Assembly (NCBI RefSeq): GCF_900115265.1 | Contig: NZ_FOVU01000012.1 | Span: 62,001 to 126,000, forward strand | DNA length: 64,000 nt | Source of the DNA: Bradyrhizobium sp. Ghvi | GTDB taxonomy: Bacteria > Pseudomonadota > Alphaproteobacteria > Rhizobiales > Xanthobacteraceae | Direction: 5' to 3' | In this document: positions 6,977 to 60,661 of the stretch, piece by piece | Numbering within the stretch: the stretch's first letter is position 1 | How the letters are laid out: every line of letters begins with the position of its first letter | The notes under the pieces: generated by a model | Told to the model about the DNA's origin: nothing | The model's database searches: none | Seen by the model: only the letters and a program-made list of their open reading frames with translations | Translations under genes and position numbers: made by a program

Positions 6977-8041
6977 CGCATTTGGGAAGCTGAGCTGGAT
7001 CGTCAGGCCCGGCGCATTGTCACGCAGCGCGATCTCGGCGCCGTGCAGGCGCGATACCGCCGCCACCAGGCTCAGGCCGAGGCCGTTGCCGGGCGTATAG
7101 CGGCTCTGCTCGAGCCGGTAGAAGCGCTTGAACACGTGATCGTGCTGGTCGGCGGCGATGCCCGGACCATCGTCGGCGATGGCAATCGTTGCGTGATTGC
7201 CGGCATTGCGACAGCTCACGGTGACCTTTCCGCCGGGACGGCCGTGCTTGATCGCGTTGTCGACGAGGTTGGCGATGGCATCGAACAACAGGTCGCGATC
7301 GCCTGTCACCGCGACCTCGCGGTCGCCGGTGAGGCTCAGGCGCGTTGCGACCTGCTCTGCGGCAGCATCGTAGAGCTCGACGACTTCGCCGGCGATCTCG
7401 GCGAGGTTGAGCGCGCGAAAAGCGCTGCGGCGGGCACGGGTCTCGATCTCCGAAATCCGCGTGATGGAAGCAAACATGCCGAGCACGGCGTCGAGATCGG
7501 CGATGGTATCGCCGATCAGCGCGGCGTCGGACTCGCCGTCGCGCGGGACGTGATAGGCTTTTTCCAGCCGGCCCCGCATGCGAGTCAGTGGCGTGCGCAG
7601 ATCGTGGGCGACATTGTCGCTGACTTGCTTGACCTCGCCCATCAGCGTCTCGATGCGGTCGAGCATCTGGTTGAGGTTTTCGGCGACGCGGTCCCATTCG
7701 TCATGGCTGCCGCGCAGGGGAATGCGGCGGTCGAGGCCCGAGAGCATGATGGCGCGGCTGGTGGCATTGATCTCCTCGATCCGCCCGACCGTGCGCCGCG
7801 TCACCAGCACGGCGGCGACGCCCGATACCACCACCAGCAGCACGGCAACTGCGATCATCGCCAGCTCGAGCATCGCCGTGAAGCCGCTGTGGTCGCCAGC
7901 GTCGCCGACCCGGCTCCGCACATAAGCGAGTGTGCCGAAATAGACGTAGGCCAGGATCGCCGCGACGATCAGGCCGAAGATCGCGATTGCGATCAGCGCC
8001 AGTCGGAAGGTCGAGGAGCGAAGCGTGTCAGCCAGGAGCAC
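6971..8041 (-). CDS. sensor histidine kinase with minimal periplasmic segment
   Basis: The order is TM1 (about 13-35), a short periplasmic loop of about 20 residues, TM2 (58-80), HAMP (about 80-135), HisKA with H146 in DNVAHDLRTP, and HATPase_c with DGPGIA and GNGLGLS. At 356 residues it is a compact EnvZ/QseC-type kinase. So short a sensor loop suggests that it senses a membrane state or a partner protein rather than a soluble ligand. Its start lies within the 3' end of the response-regulator gene (14-bp overlap), so the two form one operon. Confidence 0.93.
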   Translation of the reverse strand: MLLADTLRSSTFRLALIAIAIFGLIVAAILAYVYFGTLAYVRSRVGDAGDHSGFTAMLELAMIAVAVLLVVVSGVAAVLVTRRTVGRIEEINATSRAIMLSGLDRRIPLRGSHDEWDRVAENLNQMLDRIETLMGEVKQVSDNVAHDLRTPLTRMRGRLEKAYHVPRDGESDAALIGDTIADLDAVLGMFASITRISEIETRARRSAFRALNLAEIAGEVVELYDAAAEQVATRLSLTGDREVAVTGDRDLLFDAIANLVDNAIKHGRPGGKVTVSCRNAGNHATIAIADDGPGIAADQHDHVFKRFYRLEQSRYTPGNGLGLSLVAAVSRLHGAEIALRDNAPGLTIQLSFPNAL

Positions 8042-8720
8042 GGAGGCAATATCCGATGCCGCGGATGGTATGAATCAGCGGATAGGCTTGGGCATCGTCG
8101 ACCTTGCGGCGGACGCGTCCGACATAGACGTCGATGATGTTGGTGGAGGGATCGAAATGCAGATCCCAGACGTGCTGGAGCAGCATCGCGCGGGAGACGA
8201 CGCGGCCCTCGTTGCGGACGAGGTATTCGAGCAGCTGGAACTCGCGCGGCAGCAGCGGAATCTTGCGGCCGCGGCGGCTGGCATTGCGCGCGATCAGGTC
8301 GATGGCGAGATCGCCGACACGCAGGATGGTTTCCTTGGCGATGGTCTCGCTGCGGCGGCCGAGCGCTTCGAGCCGTGCGAGCAGCTCGACGAAGGAAAAC
8401 GGCTTGACGAGATAATCGTCGCCGCCGGAACGCAAGCCGCGCACGCGGTCGTCGACTTCGCCGAGCGCGGAGATGATCAGGAACGGCGAAGCAATGCCGT
8501 CGTCGCGTAATTGGCGCATCACGGTGATGCCGTCGATATCAGGCAGCATGCGGTCGATGGTGATCACGGCATAGTCGCGCGCCACGCCATGGCTGAGCGC
8601 TTCGCGTCCCGTGGCGGCGAGATCGACGTCGTAGCCCGATGTGGTCAGCTCTTCGGCGAGCTGGCCTGCGGTTTCCGGATCGTCCTCGACGACGAGGATG
8701 CGGCGGTGGCCTCCGGTCAT
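8028..8720 (-). CDS. OmpR/PhoB-family response regulator
   Basis: This 230-residue protein has a receiver domain with phospho-acceptor D56 (TIDRMLPD), acidic EDD near the N-terminus, Ser in IISA and Lys in LVKPF. A winged-helix DNA-binding domain follows (about 128-228, ending IRGIGYCL). It is the partner of the overlapping downstream histidine kinase. The targets cannot be read from the sequence; the neighbouring Gly-rich secreted protein is one candidate. Confidence 0.94.
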   Translation of the reverse strand: MTGGHRRILVVEDDPETAGQLAEELTTSGYDVDLAATGREALSHGVARDYAVITIDRMLPDIDGITVMRQLRDDGIASPFLIISALGEVDDRVRGLRSGGDDYLVKPFSFVELLARLEALGRRSETIAKETILRVGDLAIDLIARNASRRGRKIPLLPREFQLLEYLVRNEGRVVSRAMLLQHVWDLHFDPSTNIIDVYVGRVRRKVDDAQAYPLIHTIRGIGYCLRAPG

Positions 8721-8817
8721 GACAAACTCCGCGCGACGATCGCCACCAGATTATCCCGTTCCGGGGCTGAGCGGAACCACCCGGTGGCGATCGCGACAAT
8801 GGTGCGGACCGGCGATG

Positions 8818-9348
8818 CTAGTACCAGGTGTCCCCGCACACATTGACCCATTGCCAGCCGTAGGGTGTCCAGCTCCTGCGCCAGCAGCCGTCGTCGTAGT
8901 AATTGGCGTAGTAGAAGGGCGCGCCAAAGAAGGCGAAGCGGTGGAAGCGATGATGTCGGAAGAAGAAGGCATGGCGACCGATGAAGGGCCTGCCGTGCCA
9001 GCCCGTACCGGCAAACCGCGGCCCGAAGGCCGCGCGGGTCGCAAGCGGTGCACCTGCAAAGCGCGGCCCGATGGCCGCATGGGCCGCCATCGGCGAACCG
9101 GCGAAGCGCGCGCCACCGAAATGAGCCCCGCCCATCCCGCCGAAGTGCATGCCACCGCCCATGCCGCCGGCATGCATCCCGCCACCACCGAAATGCCCGC
9201 CACCACCGAAGCCGCCACCGCCGAAGCCGCCACCGCCGTGACCGCCGCCACCAAAGCCGCCACCTCCGCGGGCGAACACTGGTGAAGCCAGCGCCATCGC
9301 TGCGGCGATTGCCACCGCAGTGAGGCCTTTGAGAAGCCTGTTGTCCAT
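8818..9348 (-). CDS. Gly/His-rich secreted protein of unknown function
   Basis: The 176-residue product starts MDNRLLKGLTAVAIAAAMALASPVFA, written here only as a description of a classical signal peptide of about 26 residues. A GGGGFGGGG repeat tract (about 27-85), a segment with repeated GPRFAG/AARAAF units, and an aromatic C-terminus with two Cys follow. Such Gly-rich, Trp/Tyr-ended proteins are common surface or periplasmic proteins in Bradyrhizobium. The ATG at 9348 is preferred over 9567 because GAGGATG precedes it and the signal peptide starts there. Confidence 0.72.
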   Translation of the reverse strand: MDNRLLKGLTAVAIAAAMALASPVFARGGGGFGGGGHGGGGFGGGGFGGGGHFGGGGMHAGGMGGGMHFGGMGGAHFGGARFAGSPMAAHAAIGPRFAGAPLATRAAFGPRFAGTGWHGRPFIGRHAFFFRHHRFHRFAFFGAPFYYANYYDDGCWRRSWTPYGWQWVNVCGDTWY

Positions 9349-35894: not shown

Positions 35895-35911
35895 TGGCGC
35901 TCCCTAGGGGA
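35895..35911. repeat. attL, left attachment-site copy
   Basis: TGGCGCTCCCTAGGGGA matches 48406-48422 exactly over 17 bp; the flanking bases differ (A/C before, G/A after). Reverse-complemented it reads as the last 17 nt of tRNA-Glu including CCA. It marks the end of the element distal to the integrase. Confidence 0.92.
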
Positions 35912-36258: not shown

Positions 36259-38571
36259 TTAGCTCAAAACGATGTGGAAGGCTTCATTGATCACGTAGGT
36301 ACCGCTGCCTTGTATGGCGACCTCAGCGGCCATTCGCTTCTCGTTGTAGTCGAAATCGTAAATGTATTTCTCGCGGCCATTCACGGACACGCCAAGAACC
36401 CCATACCAGATCATCAGATCAAACGCCTTATCGAGATCGTCTGAGGGTATCCCAGCCACAGCGAAACGCTGCAAGACATCCTTCCGGGTTAGGGACTTCG
36501 TTGCTCCGATGAGGGAGTACAAAATGTCCGCCGAAATCCCAGAAACATCACGTATTTCGTATCCGAAATCATCCACCAAAATATTCGCGTGCTGACGCAC
36601 GGCATCCCGACAGTCTTCCTCGGTGATCAGTGTGTGTCCGCGATTGATGGCATGCGCTACTGCATTCTCTACGATGTTGATCAGAAAGCGCGGCCTCATC
36701 AGTGAATGATCGACCAAGTATTCGAAGGAGTCCTGAGCGCCAACGTGGAGAATGGCGATCCGCTTCCAAAGTTCCTCGAATGGAGCCCGCCGGTCGTCTA
36801 AGGCCGCCTGCAACCGCCGATAAATCACTTGGCGCAGCTTGATGCGATCTGTCCAGTCAAGTCTCACATACGCTGTCTTGCCGCGATCTGGCGTACTCTC
36901 CACTAAAAGCTCGTAAATATCGTTGCGAAGAAATACAACGTGCATAAAGCGACGGTCGCTGCTCGCAAAATCCCGGCGCAATTTGTCCAACGCTTCAAGC
37001 AGCAGCCTCAACAGTCGAATATCAAATTTGTCAACGCCTGCGGCAGGCCAGCCCTTATCAAGATTATCGAAAAGCAGAACAATCTCGGAGTCCTTATTTG
37101 TATTCCGAATAATTAGTTCTTTGATCGCTCCCACCGCGTCGCGGAACACGATGTTGGTCAACCGCTCCGGAGTTAGTTTTTCTCCGCGCGATGCAGCCCG
37201 CTCAATCTCTTGAAGAACAAACGATCCGAGACGATTGATCCGCGCGGTGAAATCTCCCGCCTCAACTACGCCTTGCTTCTCCAAGACGTCCGAAATCTCG
37301 CGGGACGCTGCGACAGCTCGCCCATCGTATTTTGATCTGACATCAAGATTTTCCTTTATGGTGAGTAGCACTTCCGACAGAACTACAAAGTACCAAAAGG
37401 AAGCCAGCGTATGATCGAAAACCCCCTCGCCCACCGTCATCTTGAGCAGGCTTTCGCGAAACAGACTGAGCTGGTGGGACTCCGGCTTCAGATCAGTGAC
37501 ATGTGTATTCTTTTGAATTCGAATATCGTTACGGACGATGAAAAAGATTGCTGTTTTGCCAGACCCCTTTCTTCCTGCAACCACCTTAGCTTCACCGCGC
37601 CGGGCCTTTAGATATTCGGAGGTTTCTACAAAATAGTCCTCAAGCGTTCGGAACTCGTTTTCCGCAGCAGATGCTCCGAGGACAAGATTTTGTAGTATTG
37701 TCCGACCTCCACGTTGCTGCGGCTTGGAAATTGACTGTCCAGCGATCAGAGAACCCTGGACGAAAGCCGTCACCTTCTCAGCGATCTGATCTTCGTTTCT
37801 CACGTTCTCGATCAGATCGCGAAAATCGGCGGCGGCGGGGTCCTGCGTGAAGAGACGCATCAACAACGCTTGGCGTTCTAGTCCATGGCTAAGTCCGGCT
37901 AGAAACGCAGCTCTGAGATTGTGACGCGACGCGTCTTCGATCTGCGAGGACAAAAATGGAATGATTACGCCGGAAGAAGCTGAGACGTCCGCAATGACTG
38001 AAACCGTAGAAAAGCGTGGGGCTTCCACCGGATCAAAACTTCTGAAGTGAGTTTTGGTATCCTTTACGGCCGAAACAATTGAATTGATGAAATCCGTTTT
38101 TTTAAACGCATTGAGAAAATATAGAGGTTGCTGAAAATTTACCGGCTTAGAAAAGAGCGAAATCAGGTCCCCAGAGGGCAGATCAAGCAGCGACGCTTTT
38201 AGACCTTCCGAATTCTCATAAGACTTGTAGCGAATGTTGTCGAAGAAGCCGTCACGCTGTATGGCCGCCGACGCATCAGCAAACGATGAATTCAGGACAG
38301 GGGCAATTGGCTTACCCTTCCCAATTGCAAACCCGGCCTCGTAGTATACGTTGAGGTTTGCCTGCGTGATGTCGCAGGCAAAGACATCCGCATCAACGAT
38401 AGCGCTTCTGACATCGTCAGGGATGCTCAAGCCGAAATTGTCAAGTTGGGGCCATATACGAACCTCGATTGAGGAACTGGCCGAATTGACTAACTTGCTT
38501 GCAGCCTCAATTGGTCCGACGAGTTCCCTCCCGCCTGCCGGATAGGCGAAGAACACCTTTTTGAATGCCAT
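36259..38571 (-). CDS. TIR-like/deoxyribosyltransferase-like domain fused to P-loop NTPase (Sll1717-type), predicted defence protein
   Basis: The 770-residue protein begins with a Rossmann-like domain (about 1-95) whose motif DITQANLNVYYEAG (67-80) parallels the N-x-N-V-Y-E-L-G motif of TIR-like and nucleoside deoxyribosyltransferase folds, with E78 as the candidate catalytic Glu. A middle region (100-300) is unassigned. A P-loop domain follows with Walker A GRKGSGKT (333-340) and Walker B VLLFDNLD (498-505), of the Sll1717/KAP-like type, then a helical C-terminus with a likely winged-helix region. Base composition is visibly more A/T-rich than its neighbours, a sign of separate transfer. The ATG at 38571 has GGGGGA upstream. 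An NAD-consuming abortive-infection role is inferred, not shown. Confidence 0.8.
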   Translation of the reverse strand: MAFKKVFFAYPAGGRELVGPIEAASKLVNSASSSIEVRIWPQLDNFGLSIPDDVRSAIVDADVFACDITQANLNVYYEAGFAIGKGKPIAPVLNSSFADASAAIQRDGFFDNIRYKSYENSEGLKASLLDLPSGDLISLFSKPVNFQQPLYFLNAFKKTDFINSIVSAVKDTKTHFRSFDPVEAPRFSTVSVIADVSASSGVIIPFLSSQIEDASRHNLRAAFLAGLSHGLERQALLMRLFTQDPAAADFRDLIENVRNEDQIAEKVTAFVQGSLIAGQSISKPQQRGGRTILQNLVLGASAAENEFRTLEDYFVETSEYLKARRGEAKVVAGRKGSGKTAIFFIVRNDIRIQKNTHVTDLKPESHQLSLFRESLLKMTVGEGVFDHTLASFWYFVVLSEVLLTIKENLDVRSKYDGRAVAASREISDVLEKQGVVEAGDFTARINRLGSFVLQEIERAASRGEKLTPERLTNIVFRDAVGAIKELIIRNTNKDSEIVLLFDNLDKGWPAAGVDKFDIRLLRLLLEALDKLRRDFASSDRRFMHVVFLRNDIYELLVESTPDRGKTAYVRLDWTDRIKLRQVIYRRLQAALDDRRAPFEELWKRIAILHVGAQDSFEYLVDHSLMRPRFLINIVENAVAHAINRGHTLITEEDCRDAVRQHANILVDDFGYEIRDVSGISADILYSLIGATKSLTRKDVLQRFAVAGIPSDDLDKAFDLMIWYGVLGVSVNGREKYIYDFDYNEKRMAAEVAIQGSGTYVINEAFHIVLS

Positions 38572-38610
38572 TCCCAGTCCCCCGGCCCTCAGTTTAGGCA
38601 GCGAGGGCAA

Positions 38611-39025: not shown

Positions 39026-39472
39026 ATGCCGCGCCTAACTAAAGCTAAAGTGCTCGCCGCATTCGCCCAAACGCGAGGGCTTACACTCGAACACCGGATC
39101 AAGCGCCTCAAACGGGACTTACCTCACGTTGAGGATGATCAGGTCACATGGGTAGTTGAGCGTGAGCGCCTTCAGCGATTATTCGAAAGTGCATGGGGCG
39201 TGTCACCTAGCCCTGAAGAGCTGGAAACGTATGCCGGCCCAACGGAGCACGCGGTTTATTGCGGCGAGTTTCTTCCCCCCAACAAATTACCCCCAGAACA
39301 CTATTTGGTTCACAACCACGTGAAGCCAACTAGGCAGCTAGGTCGGGCGGGCTTTCGAGCGTGGGTCACCGATGATCGCGATGAACTCGTAGAATGCCAC
39401 TGCAATTTCGGCGGTTGCCGGAACGCTAAGGTGAACCCCCACTATCGTTGGCAGCGCAAAAGCGAGAGCTAA
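39026..39472 (+). CDS. hypothetical protein with C-terminal Cys/His cluster
   Basis: The 148-residue protein has a basic helical N-terminus (LTKAKVLAAFAQTRGLTLEH), a central acidic part and a C-terminal ECHCNFGGC...NPHYRW cluster of three Cys and nearby His that could bind a metal. The start has TGAGGAAG upstream. It reads opposite to the small minus-strand genes of the element. No family recognised. Confidence 0.65.
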   Translation: MPRLTKAKVLAAFAQTRGLTLEHRIKRLKRDLPHVEDDQVTWVVERERLQRLFESAWGVSPSPEELETYAGPTEHAVYCGEFLPPNKLPPEHYLVHNHVKPTRQLGRAGFRAWVTDDRDELVECHCNFGGCRNAKVNPHYRWQRKSES

Positions 39473-40486: not shown

Positions 40487-40828
40487 CTAATGCATGCTGC
40501 GGCGACCTTTGCGCTCCACCTCGCCCATCGCCAGCTCCACCAGCTCCGGCCACTCCAGATCACGGTCCAGAGCACGCGCGAAGCCGGTCGCATCGCCATA
40601 GTGGGCGCAGCCATCGGCGATCTCCTCCGCCAGCGTCGCTAGGGTCCAGTTGACCGCGCGCGGATTGAGCCGCGCCATCTTGGCCGTCAGGCTCGCCAGA
40701 ACCGGCACAGGAATGGCCTTCGCGGTTTGGGCCAGCTCGGCGAGGTGCGGCGCGCCGGGCGCATCGGCGAGCTTGCCTGCGAAGTGCAGGAAGTATTGTT
40801 CGAAAAGGTTCGTGGGCATCACATACAT
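40487..40828 (-). CDS. hypothetical protein, 113 residues
   Basis: The start at 40828 has a GAGGAG site at 8 nt, within a leader (GAGGAGCCAA) that recurs before the gene starting at 42851. The product begins MYVMPTNLFEQYFLHFAG and has Ala/Leu-rich helices and a basic end. It lies between the helicase gene and other small genes on the same strand. Function unknown. Confidence 0.7.
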   Translation of the reverse strand: MYVMPTNLFEQYFLHFAGKLADAPGAPHLAELAQTAKAIPVPVLASLTAKMARLNPRAVNWTLATLAEEIADGCAHYGDATGFARALDRDLEWPELVELAMGEVERKGRRSMH

Positions 40829-40941
40829 TCGATTGGCTCCTCTGCTACGACGTGACGACGCACGCGCCGCCCCAGATTGATTTTCATTCCGACACCCCCG
40901 CTCTGCTCCAGTCATTCCGACCGCCCCTCTGCTCTCCACTT

Positions 40942-41046: not shown

Positions 41047-42429
41047 TTAATCGTCGGCCACCTCAACGAACTTCTTCATCTGCCTGTTCTCGGCCTGCTT
41101 CTCGACCTCGATCAAAGCGCCCGTTTCACGCCAGGTCTTGATCAACGCAAGGACCTTGGCGCGGTCTTGCTTGTCGGCAAGGCTGAGGCCCAATGTTTTG
41201 GCAATGGCGATGCCGACCCAGCTATTCGCCCGCTGGTCGGCGCGCCATTGGCCCGCCTTGATCGCTTGAGCACACCGCTCGAAGTCCGATCCGGTGACCC
41301 CGGCCAGCAAGTCGGGCCACTCCCAGCGGGTCGCAACGCCGATCTCGTCGCCCTTCAGATCACCGAAGGGGTTGCCGCTGAGACGGGTCAGCAGGTTATT
41401 GTCGAGATCGACCGAAACCAGCTTGAACCAGTCCCGCTTGTCGGCTGGCTTCGTCAGGTTGGCCTTATCGGCATAGGCTGAGAAATAGGACCGATGCTGA
41501 TCGACGCCTGCTTTCTTGGCTTCAGCTTCGGTCATGCGATTGAGCACACGAACGGAGCGACAGCCATCGGTCATCGCGACGCCGCCGCGCGCGCTTTGCA
41601 CCGTGACCTCCTGTTCGCCCTTACGAACGTGGTGGACGAGCTCGACCGCGCAATTACCCTGATCGGCGACTTTGCCCCACTCCTTCACCACCATATCGAT
41701 GGCGTTGTTGTCGTTCTCAGGAACCTTATGCGACGAAATAAACGGATCGACGATCACAACGTCGATGCCGCGCGCCTTAATCTCCGCGATCAGGGCGTCA
41801 ACGACAGGCGCGCAGATCACAGTGTCGCGGCCTTCTGTCTTGGCGATGACAAGGGGACGTTCACGGCCATGGTCGATAAACAGCCGGTCGCCGATGTCGT
41901 TTTCCGTGAGCTTGAAGTATTTGGCGGTGGCTTGAATGCGACGTGTCGTCTCCACGGCTGGGTCTTCAAGATTGAAATACCAGACGCGCAACTGTTCGGA
42001 AGTGATGCCGAGCAACGCCTGCCCTGAGACCGTCGAGAGCATTTCGGCAATGATGAGCGACGATTTACCGAGACCGCCCGGCGCAATCGTGGCGCTGACA
42101 TATTCACGGATGAGATGCTTGCCGTAAAGAAACTCTCGCATCGGAATTTGCTCTGGCGGCGTCCAGCGATACGGAGTTGCGCGCATCTGGCCGCGCAACA
42201 TATGCTCCGAAATCTGAAGCGTCGTGCGGGCATTGGAAATCATTTTGCGGATATCGGCCGGGGTGTGACGGCGAAACGATGCGCAAAATGCCTGGATGTC
42301 ATGGTCGGTTTCGTTATCCTTGATCAGCTCCTCGATGACCTGAGCCATGTTGTTGGATTGCACGATTAACGATGTTCGGCGCTTGAGCTGCGCCAAGAAC
42401 GTCTTTTCGGCGTCTGCGATCTCGTTCAT
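41047..42429 (-). CDS. RepA-like AAA-type DNA helicase
   Basis: The 460-residue protein has an N-terminal helical part (1-90), then a RecA-like ATPase core with Walker A APGGLGKSS (116-124), Walker B VVIVDPF (224-230), and a HH-R segment (VHHVRKG) followed by GGVAMTDGCRSV, as in RepA/AAA_25 hexameric helicases of plasmids and phages. The C-terminal 100 residues look like a winged-helix part. It would unwind the element's origin during replication. The start overlaps the upstream gene's stop by 4 bp (ATGA). Confidence 0.85.
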   Translation of the reverse strand: MNEIADAEKTFLAQLKRRTSLIVQSNNMAQVIEELIKDNETDHDIQAFCASFRRHTPADIRKMISNARTTLQISEHMLRGQMRATPYRWTPPEQIPMREFLYGKHLIREYVSATIAPGGLGKSSLIIAEMLSTVSGQALLGITSEQLRVWYFNLEDPAVETTRRIQATAKYFKLTENDIGDRLFIDHGRERPLVIAKTEGRDTVICAPVVDALIAEIKARGIDVVIVDPFISSHKVPENDNNAIDMVVKEWGKVADQGNCAVELVHHVRKGEQEVTVQSARGGVAMTDGCRSVRVLNRMTEAEAKKAGVDQHRSYFSAYADKANLTKPADKRDWFKLVSVDLDNNLLTRLSGNPFGDLKGDEIGVATRWEWPDLLAGVTGSDFERCAQAIKAGQWRADQRANSWVGIAIAKTLGLSLADKQDRAKVLALIKTWRETGALIEVEKQAENRQMKKFVEVADD

Positions 42430-42851
42430 GCGCGCACCTCGCGCAGCAGGCGATCAACATCGCGACGGTTCACGCCGATGTAAGCGCTGACCGGCGCGAA
42501 GCCTTCGTTAGCCGGACCGTCCTCGCCGAACACGGGAATGATGTTGATGCCCATCTCCGACGCCGCGACCAGCACCGCGCCGCGCGAGATGTAGCCACGG
42601 CGGCTCAAGCGCTCGACATCATGCTTGAGCCAACCGATAGTCAGATACTCATCGGGCTGCACAGCGCGCGTCGGGCGACACCGAGCAAACACGGATTTGA
42701 CGAGCTCGACTTGGCTGCGTTGGACGTCGTCCGGGATCGGATCGCCGAAATCCTCAGTCGAAAACCCGGCCGAACAGGCCCAATAGTCACCGATCTTCAC
42801 CGGTCCGGTGGTGGACAGATCCGGAGCATAGCTGTAAGTTGTTGTTTCCAT
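42426..42851 (-). CDS. hypothetical protein co-expressed with the helicase
   Basis: The 141-residue product starts METTTYSYAPDLSTTGP and has a WLKHDVERLSRRGYISRGAVLVAA segment that looks helix-turn-helix-like, and an end IGVNRRDVDRLLREV. It could be a DNA-binding or adaptor protein. The ATG at 42851 is preceded by AGAGGAG. Its stop overlaps the helicase ATG. It is the first gene of the minus-strand operon, divergent from the capsid module across a long palindrome. Confidence 0.68.
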   Translation of the reverse strand: METTTYSYAPDLSTTGPVKIGDYWACSAGFSTEDFGDPIPDDVQRSQVELVKSVFARCRPTRAVQPDEYLTIGWLKHDVERLSRRGYISRGAVLVAASEMGINIIPVFGEDGPANEGFAPVSAYIGVNRRDVDRLLREVRA

Positions 42852-42921
42852 AAGTGATTTGGCTCCTCTAGGCCGCTTTCGGTCCGACAACCGGCGGCGA
42901 GCTTTTCTGCGTAAAAGCGTT

Positions 42922-42964
42922 CTTAATGTACTTGCATTATATCAGTTAATGCAAGTACATTAAG
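42922..42964. promoter_or_regulatory. 18-bp perfect inverted repeat between the two divergent operons
   Basis: CTTAATGTACTTGCATTA (42922-42939) and TAATGCAAGTACATTAAG (42947-42964) are perfect inverse copies with a 7-nt centre. Each arm contains an AATG-N6-CATT unit, so two dimers might bind. It lies between the helicase operon start (42851) and the capsid operon start (42969), 4 bp before the latter ATG. It is a strong candidate for the element's master operator. Confidence 0.85.
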
Positions 42965-42968
42965 TCGC

Positions 42969-43433
42969 ATGCACCTCGAAGCCCCGCAGTTCCCCATTCC
43001 TGAGGTCGCCGACGCAGTCGGTTGCCCGCGCCCGACGCTCGACGCGTGGCGCAATCGCCTCAACCTGTTCGCGGACACCGTGACGCGCACCAAGGTGGAG
43101 AAGCGCCTCTCCTTGACCGACGCTTGCGTGGCGCGCGCGGTCAAGCTGCTCACCGATGCTGGTATCAGCGCCAAAGGCGCAATCATGGCCGCCGATGACG
43201 ATTTCGTGCGCTTGCAAATCTTCGCGCTCCTGAGCGGGGAAACCGTCAGCAGCGTGCTTGGTTTTCGTTGGGATGCGAAGGACGGCAATGAGAAGCCGGA
43301 CCTCTACTTCCTCGATCAAAATGGCTTCCTCGACGTGTTGAGCAAAGCGGGCGGCGTCATGATCGTGATCGATCTGGCGGCCGTCGTTGCTCACGTGTGC
43401 AACGCCCTCAACATCCCCATTGATCGCAAATGA
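42969..43433 (+). CDS. HTH-domain protein at the head of the capsid operon (regulator or small-terminase-like)
   Basis: The 154-residue protein has an N-terminal helix-turn-helix (PIPEVADAVGCPRPTLDAWR, then a recognition-like segment) that recalls MerR-type and lambda Nu1-type winged HTH domains. The C-terminal part (about 75-150) is acidic and hydrophobic. Its stop overlaps the portal ATG (ATGA). The position right before a portal gene fits a small terminase; the palindrome at its start fits an autoregulating repressor. No Shine-Dalgarno is visible, so the message may be leaderless. Confidence 0.65.
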   Translation: MHLEAPQFPIPEVADAVGCPRPTLDAWRNRLNLFADTVTRTKVEKRLSLTDACVARAVKLLTDAGISAKGAIMAADDDFVRLQIFALLSGETVSSVLGFRWDAKDGNEKPDLYFLDQNGFLDVLSKAGGVMIVIDLAAVVAHVCNALNIPIDRK

Positions 43434-44848
43434 CCAGCATCATCACCCGCACCCGCAACGCCTTCCGCGCCTTCACCCGCGCATTCTCCGGCTATGACAT
43501 CGCAGGCGGCTCTGCTCGCTGGCCCGCAGCCTATGCGCTGCATTCGCCCGTCACCCAGCAGCTCGCCGCCGGTCGTCTCGCGTCGCGCAAGATCGCGCAT
43601 CAGGCCGAGAACAATGCGCTCGTCAGCAGCATCATCTTGCACGGCGTGAACGCGATTGTCGGCGACGGCCCGACCGTTCGCGCGATGCATCCCAATCCCG
43701 AGACCGCCGCGCAACTGCTGCACGCCTGGAACAGCTTTTTCCAAGATTGCAGCGTCGAAGGCGGCATGTCGCTCGGCGGCTATCTGTCTCGCGCCGCTCG
43801 CGGCTTCTATGTCGATGGCGAGAGCTTCACTCAGCTTGTCACCGATCCAGCCACCATGCGCTTGAAGTTGCGCCTGTTGACGGCCGATCAGGTGGATCAT
43901 TCCAAGACTGTTCCGTCGCTCGGACTGACCGGCGATATGCCCATGATCGTGGCCGGTGTTGAATTCGACGGCACCGGCCGCCGCGTTGCCTTCTGGGTTC
44001 TCCCGACGCCGCCGGACGCGCCGTGGGCCAGCGTCGAGCCTCCGGCCCGCATCTCTGCTCTCGACATCTGCCATGTGTTCGAACCGCGCTTTCCGGGCGC
44101 GCCGCGCGGTATGTCGCCGCTGACCGCCATTGCGCCGCTTGCCCTTGAACTCGATAACTGCATCGACGCGGCTGTCGTGAAGCTGCGCACCACTTGCCTT
44201 GTCGGCATGGTCGTTCGCGACCCTGAGGGCAATTTTCCTTTCGACCCGACGACCGATCCGGCATCGCTGTACCTCGAACCCGGCGCAACCCTGCGCTTGC
44301 CTCCCGGCGCTGATGTCAGCTTCCCGCCGACCTCTGAGATGAATACGGTCGCGGAAGTCTTGTCGCATATCGAGCGCTTGGTCTGCGCGGGCGCTGGCGT
44401 GCCCGCCTTCATGGCAACGGGCGACTTCGGCGCGATTAACTTTTCCGCTGGCAAGCTCGGCTTGGCGACCTTTCAGCGTCGCATCAAGGCGCTTCAGCAG
44501 AACCACATCGTCGCGCAGCTCTTGAACCCGATCTGGGATCGGCTGGTGCTGCTCGAAGTGCTGAGCGGACGCATGCGCGCGCCCGACTATGAGAGCAATC
44601 CTGAGCGCTACGGCGCGTCCTTCCTGTTCCCGGGCTGGCCCGCCATCGACGAATTGAAGAAAGCGAAAGCCGACACGCTCGCGGTCGCCGCCAAGCTGCG
44701 CTCGCGTCAAGAAATCATCAGCGAAGGCGGGCGCGATCCCGCCGACGTTGATGCCGAAATCGAGAACGACCCCTTTGCCGCCGATGATTTGTCGGCAAGC
44801 GCTGGCTCGATTGCCAGCCAGAACGAAACGGAGAATGAGAATGCGTAA
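43430..44848 (+). CDS. phage portal protein (lambda gpB type)
   Basis: The 472-residue protein has the PF05136-like order: N-terminal SGYDIAGGSARWPAA, VNAIVGDGPTV, GESFTQLVTD, HVFEPRFPGAPRGMSPL, a helix with ELDNCIDAAVVKL, and SAGKLGLATFQRRIKALQ near the crown/clip region. A Glu/Asp-rich tail ends it. Portals form a dodecameric ring at one capsid vertex for DNA passage. It is translationally coupled to the genes on both sides. Confidence 0.92.
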   Translation: MTSIITRTRNAFRAFTRAFSGYDIAGGSARWPAAYALHSPVTQQLAAGRLASRKIAHQAENNALVSSIILHGVNAIVGDGPTVRAMHPNPETAAQLLHAWNSFFQDCSVEGGMSLGGYLSRAARGFYVDGESFTQLVTDPATMRLKLRLLTADQVDHSKTVPSLGLTGDMPMIVAGVEFDGTGRRVAFWVLPTPPDAPWASVEPPARISALDICHVFEPRFPGAPRGMSPLTAIAPLALELDNCIDAAVVKLRTTCLVGMVVRDPEGNFPFDPTTDPASLYLEPGATLRLPPGADVSFPPTSEMNTVAEVLSHIERLVCAGAGVPAFMATGDFGAINFSAGKLGLATFQRRIKALQQNHIVAQLLNPIWDRLVLLEVLSGRMRAPDYESNPERYGASFLFPGWPAIDELKKAKADTLAVAAKLRSRQEIISEGGRDPADVDAEIENDPFAADDLSASAGSIASQNETENENA

Positions 44849-46607
44849 TTCAACTGCCCTCTTGCTGCGCGAAAGCGCAGTTGACCTGACCCGCCGCGAC
44901 GCGATCCCGCGTCCGCGCACGTTCGACGGCGAGGCGATGACCGTCGAAGCCGTCATCGCATCGACCACGCCGGTTCGGCGTCGTGATGCGCGTGGCGACT
45001 TTCTCGAAATCCTCGATCCTTCGGGGCTCGACCTCGCCGTCACTCGTGGCGCGTCCGTTCTCGACAGCCACCAGCAGGGCGGCATCGACAATGTGATTGG
45101 CGTGATTGATGACGTGCGCGTTGAAGGCAACGAAGTCATTGCTCGTATCCGCTTCTCGTCGCGTCCCGAGATCGCGCCGGTCGTGACTGACATCCGCAAC
45201 GGCATCATCCGCAATGTGTCAGTCGGCTATGAAGTCGGCGAGTGGAAGGCGGGTAAAGATGCCAGCGGCGCGCGTACCATGACTGCTGTTCGCTGGTCGG
45301 TGCGTGAGGCCAGCTTTGTCGCCGTGCCCGCCGATCCCACGGCGCGCACCCGCGCCGCCAACGATGACCGTGCCATCCGTGAACTCGGCCGTCGTGCCGG
45401 TGTCGCGACGGATCGCGTCAACACCCTGGTCGAATGTGGCGCGAGCATCGATGATGCGCGCCGCGCTTTTCTCAATGACATGCTCGACCGTTCCGTGACG
45501 GTTCGTAGCGCAGGAACCACGAACATGCACAACGCTGCCACTCTCGACAATCCCGACGTTTTCCAGCGCGCCGCTGCTGAAGCCATGTATATGCGTATCG
45601 TGCCGAGCTTCACGCCGTCGCCGCAGGCTCGTCAGTATATCGGCATGAGCTGTGCCGACATCGCCCGCGAATGTTTGCATCGTTCTGGCATCTCGACGCT
45701 CGGCATGACTGCGCCGAGCCTGATCACCCGCGCTTTGCAGACCACCAGCGACTATCCGGCGCTGCTCGCGAACTTGATGAACAAGTCGCTGCGCGAAGCC
45801 TACCAGATCGCGCCGAGCGGTGTCCGCCGCATCGCCCGCCAGACTGAGGCCAACGACTTCCGCGCCAAGAGCCGCATTCAGATCGATCATTCCGGCTTCA
45901 CGCTCGACCTGATCAACGAGAGCGCCGAGTATCCCTATGGTGCCTTCATTGACAGCGCTGAGAGCTATAGCGTCGCGACCTACGGCAAGATTTTCGCCAT
46001 CACGCGCAAAGCGCTGGTCAACGACGACCTTGGCGGTCTTGGCGACGTGACGCAGCGGCTTGGCCTCGCTGCGGCTGAATTCGAACGCCAGAAGCTCGTT
46101 GACCTGATCGTGCAGAATGCGGGTCTCGGCCCGACCATGTCCGACAGCCTGACGCTCTTCCACGCGAGCCACGGCAATGTCGGCACGGGCGGCGTTCCGA
46201 GCGAGACGAGCTTGTCAGAAGCGCGCCTGTTGATGCGCAACCAGACCGGCCCCGGCGGCGGCGGCATCAGCGTCGTGCCGCGCTACCTGATTGTGCCGAG
46301 CGCGTTGGAGACCAACGCCGAGAAGCTGATCACGTCGGTTCAGGCGACGCAGACCGCCAACGTCAATCCGTTCGCGTTCCTCGATCTGATCGTCGAGCCG
46401 CGCTTGACCGATACCCATCGCTGGTACTTGTCGGCCGATCCGGCACTGCTGCCCTGCATTGAGTTCGCCTATCTGGCGGGCGCGCCGGGTCCGCAGACCG
46501 AGAGCCGCGCGGGCTTCGAGGTCGATGGCGTTCAGACCAAGGTGCGTCTGGACTACGGCTGTGGTGCCGTGGAGTGGCGCGGCCTCGTGACGAACGCGGG
46601 TCAGTAA
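44841..46607 (+). CDS. prohead protease/major capsid protein fusion
   Basis: The 588-residue protein fuses an HK97-type prohead protease (about 25-175) to a Mu-gpT-like major capsid domain (about 270-585). The protease triad fits: H77 (VLDSHQQ), S127 (IIRNVSVGYE) and E156 (REASFVAVPADP); the H-to-S spacing of 50 equals that of the HK97 protease. The capsid part has YGKIFAITRKALVNDDLGG and a C-terminal WRGL. An Asn/Met-rich segment near 245-255 may hold the maturation cleavage site. The ATG at 44841 has GGAG upstream and overlaps the portal stop. Confidence 0.92.
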   Translation: MRNSTALLLRESAVDLTRRDAIPRPRTFDGEAMTVEAVIASTTPVRRRDARGDFLEILDPSGLDLAVTRGASVLDSHQQGGIDNVIGVIDDVRVEGNEVIARIRFSSRPEIAPVVTDIRNGIIRNVSVGYEVGEWKAGKDASGARTMTAVRWSVREASFVAVPADPTARTRAANDDRAIRELGRRAGVATDRVNTLVECGASIDDARRAFLNDMLDRSVTVRSAGTTNMHNAATLDNPDVFQRAAAEAMYMRIVPSFTPSPQARQYIGMSCADIARECLHRSGISTLGMTAPSLITRALQTTSDYPALLANLMNKSLREAYQIAPSGVRRIARQTEANDFRAKSRIQIDHSGFTLDLINESAEYPYGAFIDSAESYSVATYGKIFAITRKALVNDDLGGLGDVTQRLGLAAAEFERQKLVDLIVQNAGLGPTMSDSLTLFHASHGNVGTGGVPSETSLSEARLLMRNQTGPGGGGISVVPRYLIVPSALETNAEKLITSVQATQTANVNPFAFLDLIVEPRLTDTHRWYLSADPALLPCIEFAYLAGAPGPQTESRAGFEVDGVQTKVRLDYGCGAVEWRGLVTNAGQ

Positions 46608-46610
46608 GCG

Positions 46611-46826
46611 ATGGCTGATCTCGCGACGTTGCAGGCGCAGCTCGACGCATTGAAGCGGGCGTACCGCTCTGGTGTCCGGACTGTCGAATATGACGGTCGC
46701 TCGACTTCTTACGTCAGCGGCGAGGAGATGCGCGCGGCTATCGCGTCACTTCAGAGCGAGATCGCGCAGATCATGGGCACCACGACGCCGACAGTCGCCG
46801 TCGTGCGCTCGACGAAAGGTTATTGA
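46611..46826 (+). CDS. gpW-like head-tail connector
   Basis: The 71-residue product lines up well with lambda gpW (68 residues): helix DLATLQAQLDALKRAYRSG, strand VRTVEYDGRS, then helix MRAAIASLQSEIAQI and a short basic end. gpW binds the portal and closes the filled head. It starts 3 bp after the capsid stop. It is the last structural gene seen. Confidence 0.85.
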   Translation: MADLATLQAQLDALKRAYRSGVRTVEYDGRSTSYVSGEEMRAAIASLQSEIAQIMGTTTPTVAVVRSTKGY

Positions 46827-46962: not shown

Positions 46963-47283
46963 ATGAAAGGATCGTCCTTGCCCATCGGCTACATCCTCGG
47001 CGTGCTCAGCCGCGAGCAAGCCGCCGAGTATGTCTGCGTCAGTCCAAGCCTGTTCGATGAAATGGTAGCCATGGGGCGCATGCCCAAGGCTGTCATCTTG
47101 TCGGAGCGGCGCTTCGGCTGGATACAGCGCGAGCTTGACATAGCCATTGCGGCACTTCCGCGAAAGGATCACATTGAAGCTGTCGCGCCTATCGCATTGA
47201 GCGACAAGGACCGGCAGGCATTGGAGCGATTTGATGCAGCCCGTAAATCCGCCAAGGCGCAAAAACCTGTTGCCCAACATTGA
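46963..47283 (+). CDS. AlpA/excisionase-like HTH protein
   Basis: The 106-residue product has LSREQAAEYVCVSPSLFDEM followed by RMPKAVILSERRFGW, the pattern of AlpA/Xis-type winged HTH proteins found next to rhizobial integrases. A basic tail follows. It overlaps the integrase gene by 50 bp in another frame. An ATG at 46963 lacks a good ribosome site; a TTG at 46978 has AAAGGA upstream and may be the true start. Confidence 0.75.
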   Translation: MKGSSLPIGYILGVLSREQAAEYVCVSPSLFDEMVAMGRMPKAVILSERRFGWIQRELDIAIAALPRKDHIEAVAPIALSDKDRQALERFDAARKSAKAQKPVAQH

Positions 47284-48397
47284 CGCCGTTGTTGACCGGC
47301 GCAATGGGCAGGAAACCGTCCGGTACTACTACCGGATCGGCAAAGGCCCCCGCACGCCACTGAGCGGCGTGCCGTACACTGACGAATTCATGTTATCGTA
47401 TAAGGCGGCGGCGGAAGGTCGCACGGGCATCGCCATGCCCTCGCTGGCGCGTCGCTCCACGGAAGTGCGCACCATCTCGACGCTGATCGCGCAGTACAAG
47501 GCGAACAACGCGCAGTTTAAAGCCAATCGAGATGGGACAACCAAGAAGGGCTACACTTCGCGGCTCAACGCTATTGATCGCGACTACGGCGATTGTCCGC
47601 TGATCGGCTTTACGCGTGAGCGCATCATCGATTTTCTTGACGACTTCGATGACCGCCCTGGTTCAGGTCTCGACACCCACAAGAAGTTCAAAATTCTCAT
47701 CAAGCACGCCATCGACATCAAGTGGATGACGGGCGACCCGATGGTCGGGCTGAAACGGCCCAAAGGCGGCTCGATCCGGTCATGGACCGAGGACGAAGTT
47801 GAGCAGTTCAAAGAGCGGTGGCCGCTCGGCACGCGCCAGCGTCTTGCGTTTTGCCTGACCGAGTATCTGGGGCAGCGGCGCAGCGACACCCATCGCATGG
47901 CTTGGAGCGACATCAACCCCCGTACCGGACGCATCAAGGTGGTGCAGCAGAAGACTGAGGCTAAGCTGGAAATTCCGATCCACGAGGACCTGCTGTATGT
48001 GCTCGACGACGCGCACGCGCGGCGAGGCACGGTGGTGGGGCTGAATGATCCAATCATCAAAACCGAAGCCGGGATCGGCTTCACAGTGGCAGGGTTCTCG
48101 GATTGGCTTCGTGACGCGATCACCGCAGCGGGCCTGCCGCTTGACTGCAAGCCGCACGGACTTCGTCACTTGGCAGGCGTGCGCATGGCGGAAGCCGGAT
48201 GCACCGACGAGGAAATGATGGCGGTGCTCGGGCATCGCTCGGCCACGAGCTTGCGCATCTACACGCAAGGAGCCAAGCAGCGGCAACTTGCCGAGAACGC
48301 GATCACCAAGCTCGAACAGAACCGGCACAAGCCTTCCCCAACACGCGGCTTCAAATTTGGGGAGCTGCCGAAAAGGGACGTGAAAACAGGGGGCTAG
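47234..48397 (+). CDS. tyrosine recombinase/integrase
   Basis: The 387-residue protein has an SAM-like core-binding part (about 75-165) and a catalytic domain with R215 (LGQRRSD), K240, H308-x-x-R311 (HGLRH), H334 (LGHRS) and nucleophile Y343 (RIYTQG). The set is complete. It ends 8 bp before the tRNA-derived repeat, the classical position for a tRNA-targeting integrase. ATG at 47234 follows GGAG; the TTG three bases earlier is less likely. Confidence 0.95.
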   Translation: MQPVNPPRRKNLLPNIDAVVDRRNGQETVRYYYRIGKGPRTPLSGVPYTDEFMLSYKAAAEGRTGIAMPSLARRSTEVRTISTLIAQYKANNAQFKANRDGTTKKGYTSRLNAIDRDYGDCPLIGFTRERIIDFLDDFDDRPGSGLDTHKKFKILIKHAIDIKWMTGDPMVGLKRPKGGSIRSWTEDEVEQFKERWPLGTRQRLAFCLTEYLGQRRSDTHRMAWSDINPRTGRIKVVQQKTEAKLEIPIHEDLLYVLDDAHARRGTVVGLNDPIIKTEAGIGFTVAGFSDWLRDAITAAGLPLDCKPHGLRHLAGVRMAEAGCTDEEMMAVLGHRSATSLRIYTQGAKQRQLAENAITKLEQNRHKPSPTRGFKFGELPKRDVKTGG

Positions 48398-48405
48398 AAA
48401 AAGGC

Positions 48406-48422
48406 TGGCGCTCCCTAGGGGA
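48406..48422. repeat. attR, right attachment-site copy within tRNA-Glu
   Basis: The 17-bp sequence is identical to 35895-35911 and forms the 3' end of tRNA-Glu, from the T-arm to CCA. Insertion here leaves the tRNA intact, because the element brings its own copy of the 3' end. Confidence 0.92.
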
Positions 48423-48480
48423 ATCGAACCCCTGTTTCAGCCTTGAGAGGGCCGCGTCCTAACCGCTAGACGAAGGGAGC
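48406..48480 (-). tRNA. tRNA-Glu (anticodon CTC), CCA encoded
   Basis: The 75-nt minus-strand sequence folds fully: acceptor GCTCCCT/AGGGAGC, D-arm GTC...GAC with GCGGTTAG, anticodon stem CGGCC/GGCTG with loop CTCTCAA, T-arm GGGG-TTCGATT-CCCC, discriminator G and encoded CCA. Anticodon CTC reads GAG. It serves as the integration site of the element to its left. Confidence 0.97.
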
Positions 48481-58745: not shown

Positions 58746-59498
58746 ATGGCTGTCTCGACACAGATTGAGTGGACCGATGCCACGTGGAATCCGGTCACCG
58801 GATGCACAAAGATTACACGTGGCTGCGACCTCTGCTACGCGGAACGCTTTTCGGAGCGATTTAGGGACGTGCACGGTCACCCATTCGAATCCGGGTTTGA
58901 TCTCAAACTGCGTCCGGAACGACTAGAGCAACCGCTCACTTGGCGCCAGCCGCGACGCATCTTCGTCAACTCCATGAGCGACCTCTTTCACAAGGAGATA
59001 CCGAAGTCGTTCATCGACTCTATCTTCAAGACGATGGAGACAGCCAATTGGCATACATTTCAAGTGCTGACCAAGCGCAGTTCGCTCATGACGCGATATC
59101 TTCTGAGCCGATACCGCGTGGAGAAGGCTCCTCCTCACATTTGGTTAGGCGTATCTATCGAGGACGCGCAGAACGCTATTCGGCTAAAGCACCTTCATGC
59201 CGCGCGCGCATCGACGAAGTTCGTTTCGTTCGAGCCCCTGCTTGGTCCTGTCGGCAAGCTTGATCTCGAAGGGATCGATTGGGCGATTGTGGGTGGTGAA
59301 AGCGGCCCGCGCGCACGGCCGATGGCAGAGGAGTGGGCAATCGAAATTCGCGATCAATGTCGAACCGCGAAGGTTGCCTTCTTCTTTAAGCAATGGGGCG
59401 GCACCCGACCGAAGTCTGGCGGGCGGCTCCTGCAGGGCCGCGAATGGAATCAATATCCCCGAATTTCCCGAACAAGACTATTAGACGCAGCCGAATAG
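58746..59498 (+). CDS. DUF5131 (phage Gp37/Gp68-like) three-Cys-motif protein
   Basis: The 250-residue protein has TDATWNPVTGCTKITRGCDLCYAERF, quoted here only by its Cys at 20, 27 and 30 (CX6CX2C), then IFVNSMSDLFHKEIP, LTKRS and GGESGPRARPM. This Cys cluster recalls a radical-SAM-like Fe-S site, but no SAM motif can be proved. The family is typically next to TcmP, as here. The gene is more A/T-rich than its surroundings. Start has AAGGTGGG upstream and a TTGACT box at 58712. Confidence 0.9.
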   Translation: MAVSTQIEWTDATWNPVTGCTKITRGCDLCYAERFSERFRDVHGHPFESGFDLKLRPERLEQPLTWRQPRRIFVNSMSDLFHKEIPKSFIDSIFKTMETANWHTFQVLTKRSSLMTRYLLSRYRVEKAPPHIWLGVSIEDAQNAIRLKHLHAARASTKFVSFEPLLGPVGKLDLEGIDWAIVGGESGPRARPMAEEWAIEIRDQCRTAKVAFFFKQWGGTRPKSGGRLLQGREWNQYPRISRTRLLDAAE

Positions 59499-59509
59499 AG
59501 AGGTTAGTT

Positions 59510-60661
59510 GTGAGCGACCCTTACTTCGGTCGCGAGCAGACCAAGGCCAAGCATTTCATCTTGAAGAGCTACCTTCAGGCGCTCGCGTTTAAGGTATTGA
59601 ATTTTTCTGACGTGACGTATGTCGACGGCTTTTCAGGTCCATGGGAATCCAAGACTACGGACTTTAGCGACTCCTCCTTCATGATCGCAATCCACGTCTT
59701 GAAGGACGCTCAAAGCCAAGTGCTAACGCGAACCGGAAAAAGACGACGGATCAAATGTTTCTTTTCCGAGAAAAATGCAAGGGCCTATTCCCAGCTGGCG
59801 AGCGCAGTTGCCGAATTTCATAAACCTGAGGACGACTTCGAAATTAAAACTTACGAAGGAAACTTCGAGGACGCGGTCGAAATAATTCGACCTTTCGTTG
59901 GCACATCCTTCCCTCTAATATTCATCGATCCAACCGGGTGGACTGGTTATCCATTCGATAAGATCAGACCGTTATTTGCTCAAGCTAAATGCGAGGTGCT
60001 GATCAACTTCATGTACGACTTTATCAATCGATTTGCACATAGCGCGGACCAAGAAATCATAGACTCGCTAGCTCCCATTCTGGGCGGAGCCGACTGGCCC
60101 AAGCGTCTCGACGGAAACATCTCCCGCGGTCTCGCTGTTGAGAAGCTATTCCGCGATACACTCCAAAAAGCAGGTAACTTCGAATTCGTGATATCCACGA
60201 AGATCGACAAGGCGACAGCCGAACGACCGCATTTCTTTATCGCATACGGAACCAAGAGCACTGAAGGATTGAAGACGTTTCGTCAGATTGAATACGACGC
60301 ACTGCGAAGGCACGCTAAAAGTAGGGCAAACGCAATAGAAGCAAAAAGAGAGGAGCGATCAAACGTTGTCGATATGTTTGCAGATCATCGCGCCGAACTG
60401 AGCGAGGCAACAGTTGAGGAAATCGTTGCCGAACAGAAACGATTAGCCGCCGGTCACATGTTGGAGTTGCTTATCCAGCACGGGGCGCTCAAGTTTTCTG
60501 AAGTCGTTCCTGCCCTACTGCAACCATTCATGTTGCGGGAAACAAACGTGAAGGACATTTGTGTCGACCTTGCCAAGGCCGGCCAGATCGAAAATGTATG
60601 GGGTACCGGCAATCGAAAGCCGCGCGACGAAGACGTTATCCGCCTACGCCCCCGGCAATGA
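59510..60661 (+). CDS. tcmP: three-Cys-motif partner protein TcmP
   Basis: The 383-residue protein carries YVDGFSGPW (37-45) and FIDPTGWTG (138-147), a methyltransferase-like arrangement of a motif I-like loop and a DPxG motif. A helical C-terminus (about 270-383) ends with basic residues. TcmP is defined as the partner of the three-Cys protein, whose gene is 12 bp upstream. GTG at 59510 follows GAGAGG; longer frames overlap the first gene. Function of the pair is unknown; a nucleic-acid or tRNA modification role has been suggested only by fold. Confidence 0.88.
   Translation: MSDPYFGREQTKAKHFILKSYLQALAFKVLNFSDVTYVDGFSGPWESKTTDFSDSSFMIAIHVLKDAQSQVLTRTGKRRRIKCFFSEKNARAYSQLASAVAEFHKPEDDFEIKTYEGNFEDAVEIIRPFVGTSFPLIFIDPTGWTGYPFDKIRPLFAQAKCEVLINFMYDFINRFAHSADQEIIDSLAPILGGADWPKRLDGNISRGLAVEKLFRDTLQKAGNFEFVISTKIDKATAERPHFFIAYGTKSTEGLKTFRQIEYDALRRHAKSRANAIEAKREERSNVVDMFADHRAELSEATVEEIVAEQKRLAAGHMLELLIQHGALKFSEVVPALLQPFMLRETNVKDICVDLAKAGQIENVWGTGNRKPRDEDVIRLRPRQ

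Follow-up and report, generated by a model that had tools for sequence, protein, structure and literature searches.

A compact head-gene module without terminase

The window, a 64,000-nucleotide stretch of the Bradyrhizobium sp. Ghvi genome, carries an integrated element of 12,528 bp which we consider likely to be a capsid-forming phage satellite, an element that makes its own head and connector and borrows the packaging motor and the tail from a helper. It codes for a portal, a prohead protease fused to the major capsid protein (MCP) and a gpW-like connector; neither terminase nor tail genes were found in it.

Rightward from a divergent region at 42.9 kb, the genes are arranged in the order regulator, portal, protease/MCP, gpW, AlpA-like protein and integrase. 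The portal protein (43430–44848, + strand) belongs to the lambda family (Phage_portal_2, PF05136, E 1e-46; phrog_21, E 3e-51). The protease/MCP fusion (44841–46607, + strand) is 588 aa long, with an alternative 619-aa reading that begins upstream, inside the portal gene; it matches Phage_capsid_4 (E 1e-55) and Peptidase_S78 (E 1e-5) in Pfam (PF25209, PF04586) and phrog_4523, 'major head and protease', in PHROGs (E 6e-178). Its His95 and Ser145 (numbering of alignment A1), which we take to be the catalytic residues, are invariant in all nine aligned rows. The gpW-like head-tail connector (46611–46826, + strand) matches phrog_2545, head-tail adaptor Ad1 (E 8e-16), and has no match in Pfam; ~110 bp behind it are conserved in all eight elements compared, including the terminase-carrying L042 described below (loci are numbered with the prefix L). 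A first-pass annotation of the window had described a helix-turn-helix (HTH) protein, the portal, the protease/MCP and gpW as an intact and tightly packed module, and its coordinates and open frames stand. Specifically, all four open reading frames (ORFs) are free of internal stops and are separated, in turn, by a 4-nt overlap, an 8-nt overlap and a 3-nt gap, a spacing that makes translational coupling of the four genes plausible.

The element is bounded by 17-bp repeats, TGGCGCTCCCTAGGGGA, of which the + strand of the window holds these two copies only: attL at 35895–35911 and an exact second copy, attR, at 48406–48422 (both unstranded features), the latter inside the tRNA-Glu(ctc) gene (48406–48480, minus strand). 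Of 265 Bradyrhizobium genomes, 66 contain the left flank; we fetched 30 such loci, including the window's own, and the empty site, with the left flank beside tRNA-Glu(ctc), was observed in nine of the 29 loci from other genomes. In the empty site of L135, the left-flank match stops at base 2095 and the right-flank match starts at 2096. A complete tRNA-Glu was not seen in the fetched piece at 20 of the 29 loci, and for L137 and L160 just 44–48 bp of the right side lie in that piece. Judged from the sequence, the element integrates at tRNA-Glu, with which both the att repeats and the empty sites agree. The tRNA-Glu site of L133, L137 and L160, where the full tRNA-Glu does not follow the left flank, may carry other insertions.

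Searches for terminase, tail and lysis genes

The first-pass annotation had also reported no large terminase subunit (TerL), tail, tape measure, lysis or holin gene anywhere in the element. Profile searches for a hidden TerL or tail gene, carried out on the element with Pfam, PHROGs and six-frame profiles, turned up none either. None of the ten element proteins matched a terminase, tail, holin or lysis family in Pfam or PHROGs, and the best matches of the short ORFs, compared with PHROGs only, were at chance level (for example, a head-closure family at E 0.27). HNH was likewise not detected in the ten proteins (Pfam, PHROGs) or in the short ORFs (PHROGs only). In a six-frame search with profiles of TerL and of the small terminase subunit (TerS) from the same satellite group (29 and 27 matching proteins), the window gave no TerL (best E 2.2) and no TerS (best E 0.78), and over all 17 TerL-less or capsid-only elements and loci searched, nothing was found, with best values of E 2.2 for TerL and E 0.21 for TerS. 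The same search recovered the TerL of L116 (E 6e-233), which had been missed by gene calling, together with the TerS of that locus (E 3e-42). At 12,528 bp, with head genes and with neither terminase nor tail found, the element does not have the three modules that make up a complete tailed prophage.

Head genes of the terminase-less lineage are under purifying selection

Searching with the MCP, we found matches in 26 of 265 Bradyrhizobium genomes; the loci of 19 of these were examined, the weak matches of the remaining seven being left out. Nine close elements, the window's included, share 51–100% MCP identity; the nearest named match of the window, by MCP, is B. cytisi (89%). Seven of the nine are TerL-less: the window element, L036 (genome G195), L037 (G197), L038 (G024), L039 (G212), L040 (G176) and L041 (G020). 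The other two carry terminase. L042 has TerL (phrog_15, E 7e-189) and TerS (phrog_57, E 6e-19) on the opposite strand, while L043 is a 12.85-kb tRNA-Gly element with TerL, TerS, head genes, HNH, a decoration protein and a 613-aa tape-measure-like protein, in which no other tail gene was recognised. In addition, the genus holds six further elements with an MCP (L044–L049), in which portal, gpW and TerL were not found, two phage-type loci (L050, L052) and two unclear ones, L051 and L053, the latter of fragmentary appearance. L003 does not differ from the window, and L061 and L004 are one and the same contig.

The gene set recurs in the seven TerL-less elements, but not at tRNA-Glu only: tRNA-Glu, Gly, Gly, Arg and Asn are used, and L041 shows a 16-bp repeat at which no tRNA was detected. 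The att repeats put six of the seven elements at 11.9–12.5 kb; for L036, att sites were not found and the ends were set provisionally by hand. By tblastn, portal, MCP and gpW are present in all seven, the helicase in five and the regulator in six, and helicase, regulator, integrase type and cargo vary among them. Pairwise ratios of non-synonymous to synonymous substitution (dN/dS, Nei–Gojobori NG86; 28 pairs per gene among eight elements, the seven TerL-less ones and L042) were 0.08–0.26 for the portal, 0.10–0.37 for the MCP and 0.10–0.44 for gpW, with dS reaching ~1.5; regulator ratios were not used, the ORF before the portal of L038 being another gene. Portal, MCP and gpW are under purifying selection in the TerL-less lineage, and their presence in all seven elements together with the low dN/dS makes the head genes its best-conserved part. 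Full prophages that had lost genes at different places, which would have spoken for decay, were not what we found: the seven elements share the same three structural genes.

Related satellites across the order

In the order, which we take to be Hyphomicrobiales, MCP relatives with an E of at most 1e-30 occur in 72 of 397 genomes, and 60 of the listed places were fetched. When 79 loci (the window, 18 of the genus and 60 of the order) and six phage records (seven phage regions were fetched, one without annotation) were classified automatically, 10 came out as TerL-less, 35 as TerL-positive, 13 as MCP-only and 27 as phage-type. These counts were kept despite rereading, by which L050 is a phage (TerL, gpW before the portal, MCP far downstream), L117 is cut by a contig end, L051 and L053 are unclear and L196 is phage-like. 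The group is not rare, since 40 of the 60 order loci, which lie outside the genus-wide search, fall in satellite classes. Host bacteria of the order include nitrogen-fixing symbionts.

A repeat of at least 15 bp overlapping a tRNA was observed in 7 of 10 TerL-less, 23 of 35 TerL-positive and 7 of 13 MCP-only loci (37 of 58 in all) and in none of the 27 phage-type loci, a count more fairly given as 0 of 21, six being short phage-record pieces; the fetched pieces are 20 kb long, and a 40-kb prophage could not reveal its ends there. Sizes in the satellite classes lie between 9.2 and 15.4 kb, and the medians of the classes are 12.06, 11.99 and 11.54 kb although the cargo differs; a narrow range of this kind would be expected if the capsid volume were fixed. 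The TerL-positive L169, flanked by two tRNA-Pro copies, is larger than the others at 15.4 kb. The order of the head genes in satellites is portal, MCP and gpW, usually followed by decoration: gpW lies behind the MCP in 9 of 10 TerL-less and 32 of 35 TerL-positive loci. It lies before the portal in all 27 phage-type loci, a class partly defined by that order, including, by profile, all six phage records. An integrase was detected by profile in 8 of 10 TerL-less loci, 25 of 35 TerL-positive loci and 0 of 27 phage-type pieces.

An MCP tree of 82 of the 85 rows (L117, L053 and L051 excluded; L050 and L196 relabelled) puts 49 satellite rows on one side of a branch with a support of 90 in the Shimodaira–Hasegawa-like approximate likelihood ratio test (SH-aLRT). 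The window's seven TerL-less rows form a group with L042, L043 and L102 (branch 100), which is nested within TerL-positive elements. Four separate places on the satellite side are without terminase, namely the window lineage, L110, the main capsid-only group (eight rows) and L119 with L191, and because phages have a terminase, loss is the natural reading. For L042, the terminase may have been either regained or kept. The placement of the main capsid-only group differs between trees: beside all other satellites in the 82-row tree, beside the TerL-positive L108, L114, L115 and L118 in another MCP tree, from which L003 and L005 were excluded.

Of the 13 loci automatically classed as MCP-only (no portal, TerL or gpW found), ten are on the satellite side. 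In L044–L049, L119, L191 and L195 the protease/MCP is the sole head gene found; most of them have an integrase, and several are 9–12 kb long with tRNA-anchored repeats. The capsid-only L046 is not free of tail-like genes, a 366-aa protein at 7877–8977 of that locus matching many tail-fibre families (phrog_2631, E 5e-28). These capsid-only satellites merit separate study.

A CvkR-like regulator and a palindrome upstream of the capsid operon

The first gene of the capsid operon (42969–43433, + strand), earlier called an HTH protein, can now be assigned to the MerR-type regulators and is no candidate for TerS. Its Pfam matches, MerR_1 (E 0.0014) and HTH_23 (E 3e-5), are both slightly under the curated cut-off. 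The predicted model (pLDDT 79.5, pTM 0.80, from four sequences) combines a winged-HTH N-terminus with the overall fold of CvkR (7xn2), which it appears to share over nearly the whole length (Foldseek E 8e-5; VIA-align Z 13.7, 3.3 Å over 141 residues), albeit at 15% identity. CvkR, a repressor of the MerR type, controls a transposon system (type V-K CRISPR-associated transposon, CAST) and binds an inverted repeat (PMC9938897); in the element, the target would instead be the capsid operon.

A palindrome (42922–42964, unstranded) of two perfect 18-bp arms and a 7-nt loop lies in the divergent promoter region, 4 bp before the regulator ATG, and is the predicted operator. None of 200 mononucleotide shuffles, the control applied to each locus, gave an equally good one. 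A comparable palindrome, that is, one with a score of at least 14 within 100 bp before the regulator gene, was present in 7 of 17 loci (window, L037, L061, L038, L043, L102 and L107); that of L038, whose regulator is 53% identical, differs in sequence. We predict that the CvkR-like regulator represses its own capsid operon through this palindrome.

The possibility that the regulator is a TerS was rejected. Related proteins, found with a profile iterated over four rounds, precede the portal even where TerS and TerL are present (L102, L043, L107, L116, L121) and precede the MCP in the capsid-only L044, L045, L048 and L119; in addition, the fold matches CvkR. TerS structures were absent among the structure matches listed, which excludes nothing. 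The upstream proteins of other satellites (e.g. L103, L105, L108 and L112) gave no match to the regulator profile.

Comparison with known systems

According to PMC10690885, capsid-forming satellites supply the packaging motor along with the head, and capsid-forming phage-inducible chromosomal islands (cf-PICIs) also code for TerL, TerS and HNH. The element resembles cf-PICIs in being an integrated satellite with its own MCP, protease, portal, connector, integrase and att sites and no tail genes found; it differs in that TerL, TerS and HNH were not found, the comparison being one of described gene content. By its anatomy, the element should work like a capsid-forming satellite; judged by terminase, it falls outside the cf-PICIs. 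The simplest account is a cf-PICI-like lineage in which the motor has been abandoned, and its ancestors probably had a TerS and a TerL of their own, as cf-PICIs do.

TerL-positive satellites of the same order (e.g. L103, L112, L188 and L190) share with the element the capsid family, gpW behind the MCP, an integrase, tRNA-anchored repeats and a size of ~12 kb, but additionally encode TerS, TerL and, in most cases, a decoration protein. The Streptomyces satellites MulchRoom and MiniFlayer also encode their own heads and differ in coding for both terminase subunits; PMC10690885 further gives them direct terminal repeats and no recognisable primases. Rhodobacter phages such as RcMamaDuck have a protease–MCP fusion, a portal and a gpW of the same families, whereas RcMamaDuck is a 41.8-kb phage with gpW before the portal and with terminase and tail genes. 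A terminase-less capsid-forming satellite was not found in the literature searched, which comprised the available parts of PMC10690885, PMC12324425, PMC11389934 and PMC9938897, the primary cf-PICI paper lying outside it.

Candidate motors in the host genomes

A GpA-type TerL was found in 6 of 15 genomes searched, and three of the seven hosts of TerL-less elements have one elsewhere in the genome. In the window's own genome, the one GpA_ATPase match is on another contig and belongs to L054 (contig C23, ~97–113 kb), a reduced prophage with TerS, TerL, portal, gpW, a tape-measure-like protein, a primase and an integrase, in which an MCP was not found. No match to Pfam TerL_ATPase (PF03354) was present anywhere in this genome, TerL families beyond the GpA type having been searched in it alone. 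A search for a packaging site by 16-mers shared between the element and the region around this TerL yielded two isolated hits, which we attribute to chance, and a plasmid DNA collection gave no megablast match to the element. The helper may be an incoming phage.

Proposed mechanism and alternative explanations

In the mechanism that we propose, the CvkR-like protein would, in the resident state, occupy the palindrome that separates the divergent operons for replication and capsid, repressing the capsid operon and perhaps also replication. A helper phage would lift the repression, upon which the element would excise and replicate using its own helicase. Portal, protease/MCP and gpW would form a small prohead sized for ~12 kb; the helper terminase would dock on the satellite portal and load satellite DNA, gpW would close the neck and the helper tail would then be attached. 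We infer head formation and a helper-supplied motor and tail in this way; having neither TerS nor TerL, the lineage would depend on the helper for the motor as well as for the tail.

Several observations weigh against this interpretation. No helper, cos site or pac site was identified, megablast against 50,697 phage records gave no match to the DNA of the element, and four of the seven genomes hosting TerL-less elements are without any GpA-type TerL. Furthermore, 21 of the 58 satellite-class loci are without a tRNA-anchored repeat in the fetched piece, and a strong palindrome occurs only in the seven loci named above, being weak, elsewhere or missing in the other ten. The branch dividing most satellites from phages (SH-aLRT 90) is not starred; its phage side also holds L169, L175, L179 and L164, of which L169 and L175 have gpW behind the MCP and L179 has a 51-bp tRNA-Val repeat. 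Finally, the portal of L004 has one internal stop, and the MCP gene of L005 is interrupted by an insertion. By our own reading of the sequence, the two genes inside the latter (L005, 6302–8370) look like IS21 IstA/IstB. As to L179, this 11.97-kb locus has portal and MCP, TerL was not found in it, and with an MCP among those of phages it is possibly an independent case.

Such damaged copies, the fragmentary look of L053 and the reduced prophage L054 in the same genome are also what speaks for a defective prophage in decay, in which terminase, tail and lysis genes have been lost and the head genes are passive leftovers. We regard this as unlikely, because all seven TerL-less elements keep the same three head genes with dN/dS well below 1, sizes stay at ~12 kb at different tRNAs, the gene order is unlike that of phages, and no phage-type locus exceeded 37% MCP identity in the 19 of 26 matching Bradyrhizobium genomes examined. 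The earlier argument that intact genes and tight spacing speak against simple decay is thereby strengthened, purifying selection being seen over dS of up to ~1.5, yet the damage in L004 and L005 has to be set beside it. The selection on portal and gpW, and the retention of the putative protease His and Ser, fit a complete head better than a poison, and so make it quite improbable that the satellite head proteins mainly serve to poison or resize helper heads by co-assembly, with satellite DNA travelling in mixed or helper heads. This idea draws on the existence of a related MCP-only lineage, so that a capsid protein alone may benefit satellites, and on redirection being a known satellite strategy (PMC10690885). 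That the element encodes a motor after all, by an unrelated ATPase such as its RepA-like helicase, seems barely credible: the helicase family is present in five of the seven TerL-less elements and no other shared ATPase gene was seen, but the protein matches RepA, profile-related helicases sit beside TerL in the TerL-positive L043, L105 and L106, and in L040 and L041 the replication protein belongs to other clusters.

Extending the preferred reading, that of a capsid-forming satellite relying on a foreign motor, we tentatively suggest, as a possibility that we would not yet favour, that capsid-forming satellites shed packaging genes stepwise, beginning with terminase and continuing with portal and connector, whereas capsid gene and a size of ~12 kb are retained. 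A foreign motor would fill the satellite proheads, portal-free satellites would build their capsid onto the helper portal, and the motor might even come from a second resident element. Shedding with a foreign motor is suggested by the absence of terminase at several separate places of the tree, and a second resident element as its source by the TerS–TerL–portal remnant of the same genome, in which a capsid gene was not found. A lineage with a head but no motor, as in the preferred reading, would show that the terminase of one element can load the prohead of another, and the portal–terminase interface and the limits of helper dependence would become testable. The series from TerL-positive through TerL-less to capsid-only within one capsid family would represent natural intermediates of satellite reduction.

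Replication, integration and cargo genes

Leftward from the divergent region lie the 141-aa protein, the RepA-like helicase, small unknown genes and a 783-aa cargo ATPase. The 141-aa protein (42426–42851, − strand; 154 aa if started at a TTG at 42890) is coupled to the helicase and was detected by profile in all seven TerL-less elements. The RepA-like replicative helicase (41047–42429, − strand) matches AAA_25 (E 3e-35) and the RepA structure 1g8y (E 1.5e-11); its reading frame, like that of the integrase, is open. Two further proteins have no family match: one of 150 aa (40487–40939, − strand; 113 aa in the gene calls), with tblastn matches in the satellites L036, L038/L002, L041 and L004, and one of 148 aa and unassigned function (39026–39472, + strand), with tblastn matches in L037 (77%) and L004 (66%). 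At the right end, an AlpA/excisionase-like HTH protein (46963–47283, + strand; phrog_25900, E 6e-5; phrog_66, E 4e-4; no Pfam match) is followed by a tyrosine integrase (47231–48397, + strand, TTG start assumed; PF00589, E 1e-19; phrog_1, E 4e-37).

The cargo protein (36259–38610, − strand; 783 aa, or 770 aa in the gene calls, the start being uncertain) is a P-loop ATPase and a candidate for anti-phage defence. It matches AAA_16 at E 0.0025, under the curated cut-off, and PADLOC PDC-M28C weakly (E 4e-5), and by eye its N-terminus appears TIR-like. Defence cargo is typical for satellites. Among ten cargo proteins of the window and its relatives, PADLOC gave strong matches for three, in L038 (AriAB type, E 2e-202), L048 (type IIG restriction enzyme) and L040 (PDC-S33, E 4e-61), weak ones for two (the 783-aa protein and a protein of L037) and none for the other five. 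Pfam gave no match for the cargo of L039, L041 (two proteins), L040, L036 and L045; it identified an MmeI-type enzyme in L049, a sulfatase in L044 and a subtilase in L119.

Outside the element, the window holds at 58746–60661 a low-GC gene pair coding for proteins of 250 and 422 aa, possibly a small mobile or defence locus; the pair presumably resembles DUF5131 and TcmP.

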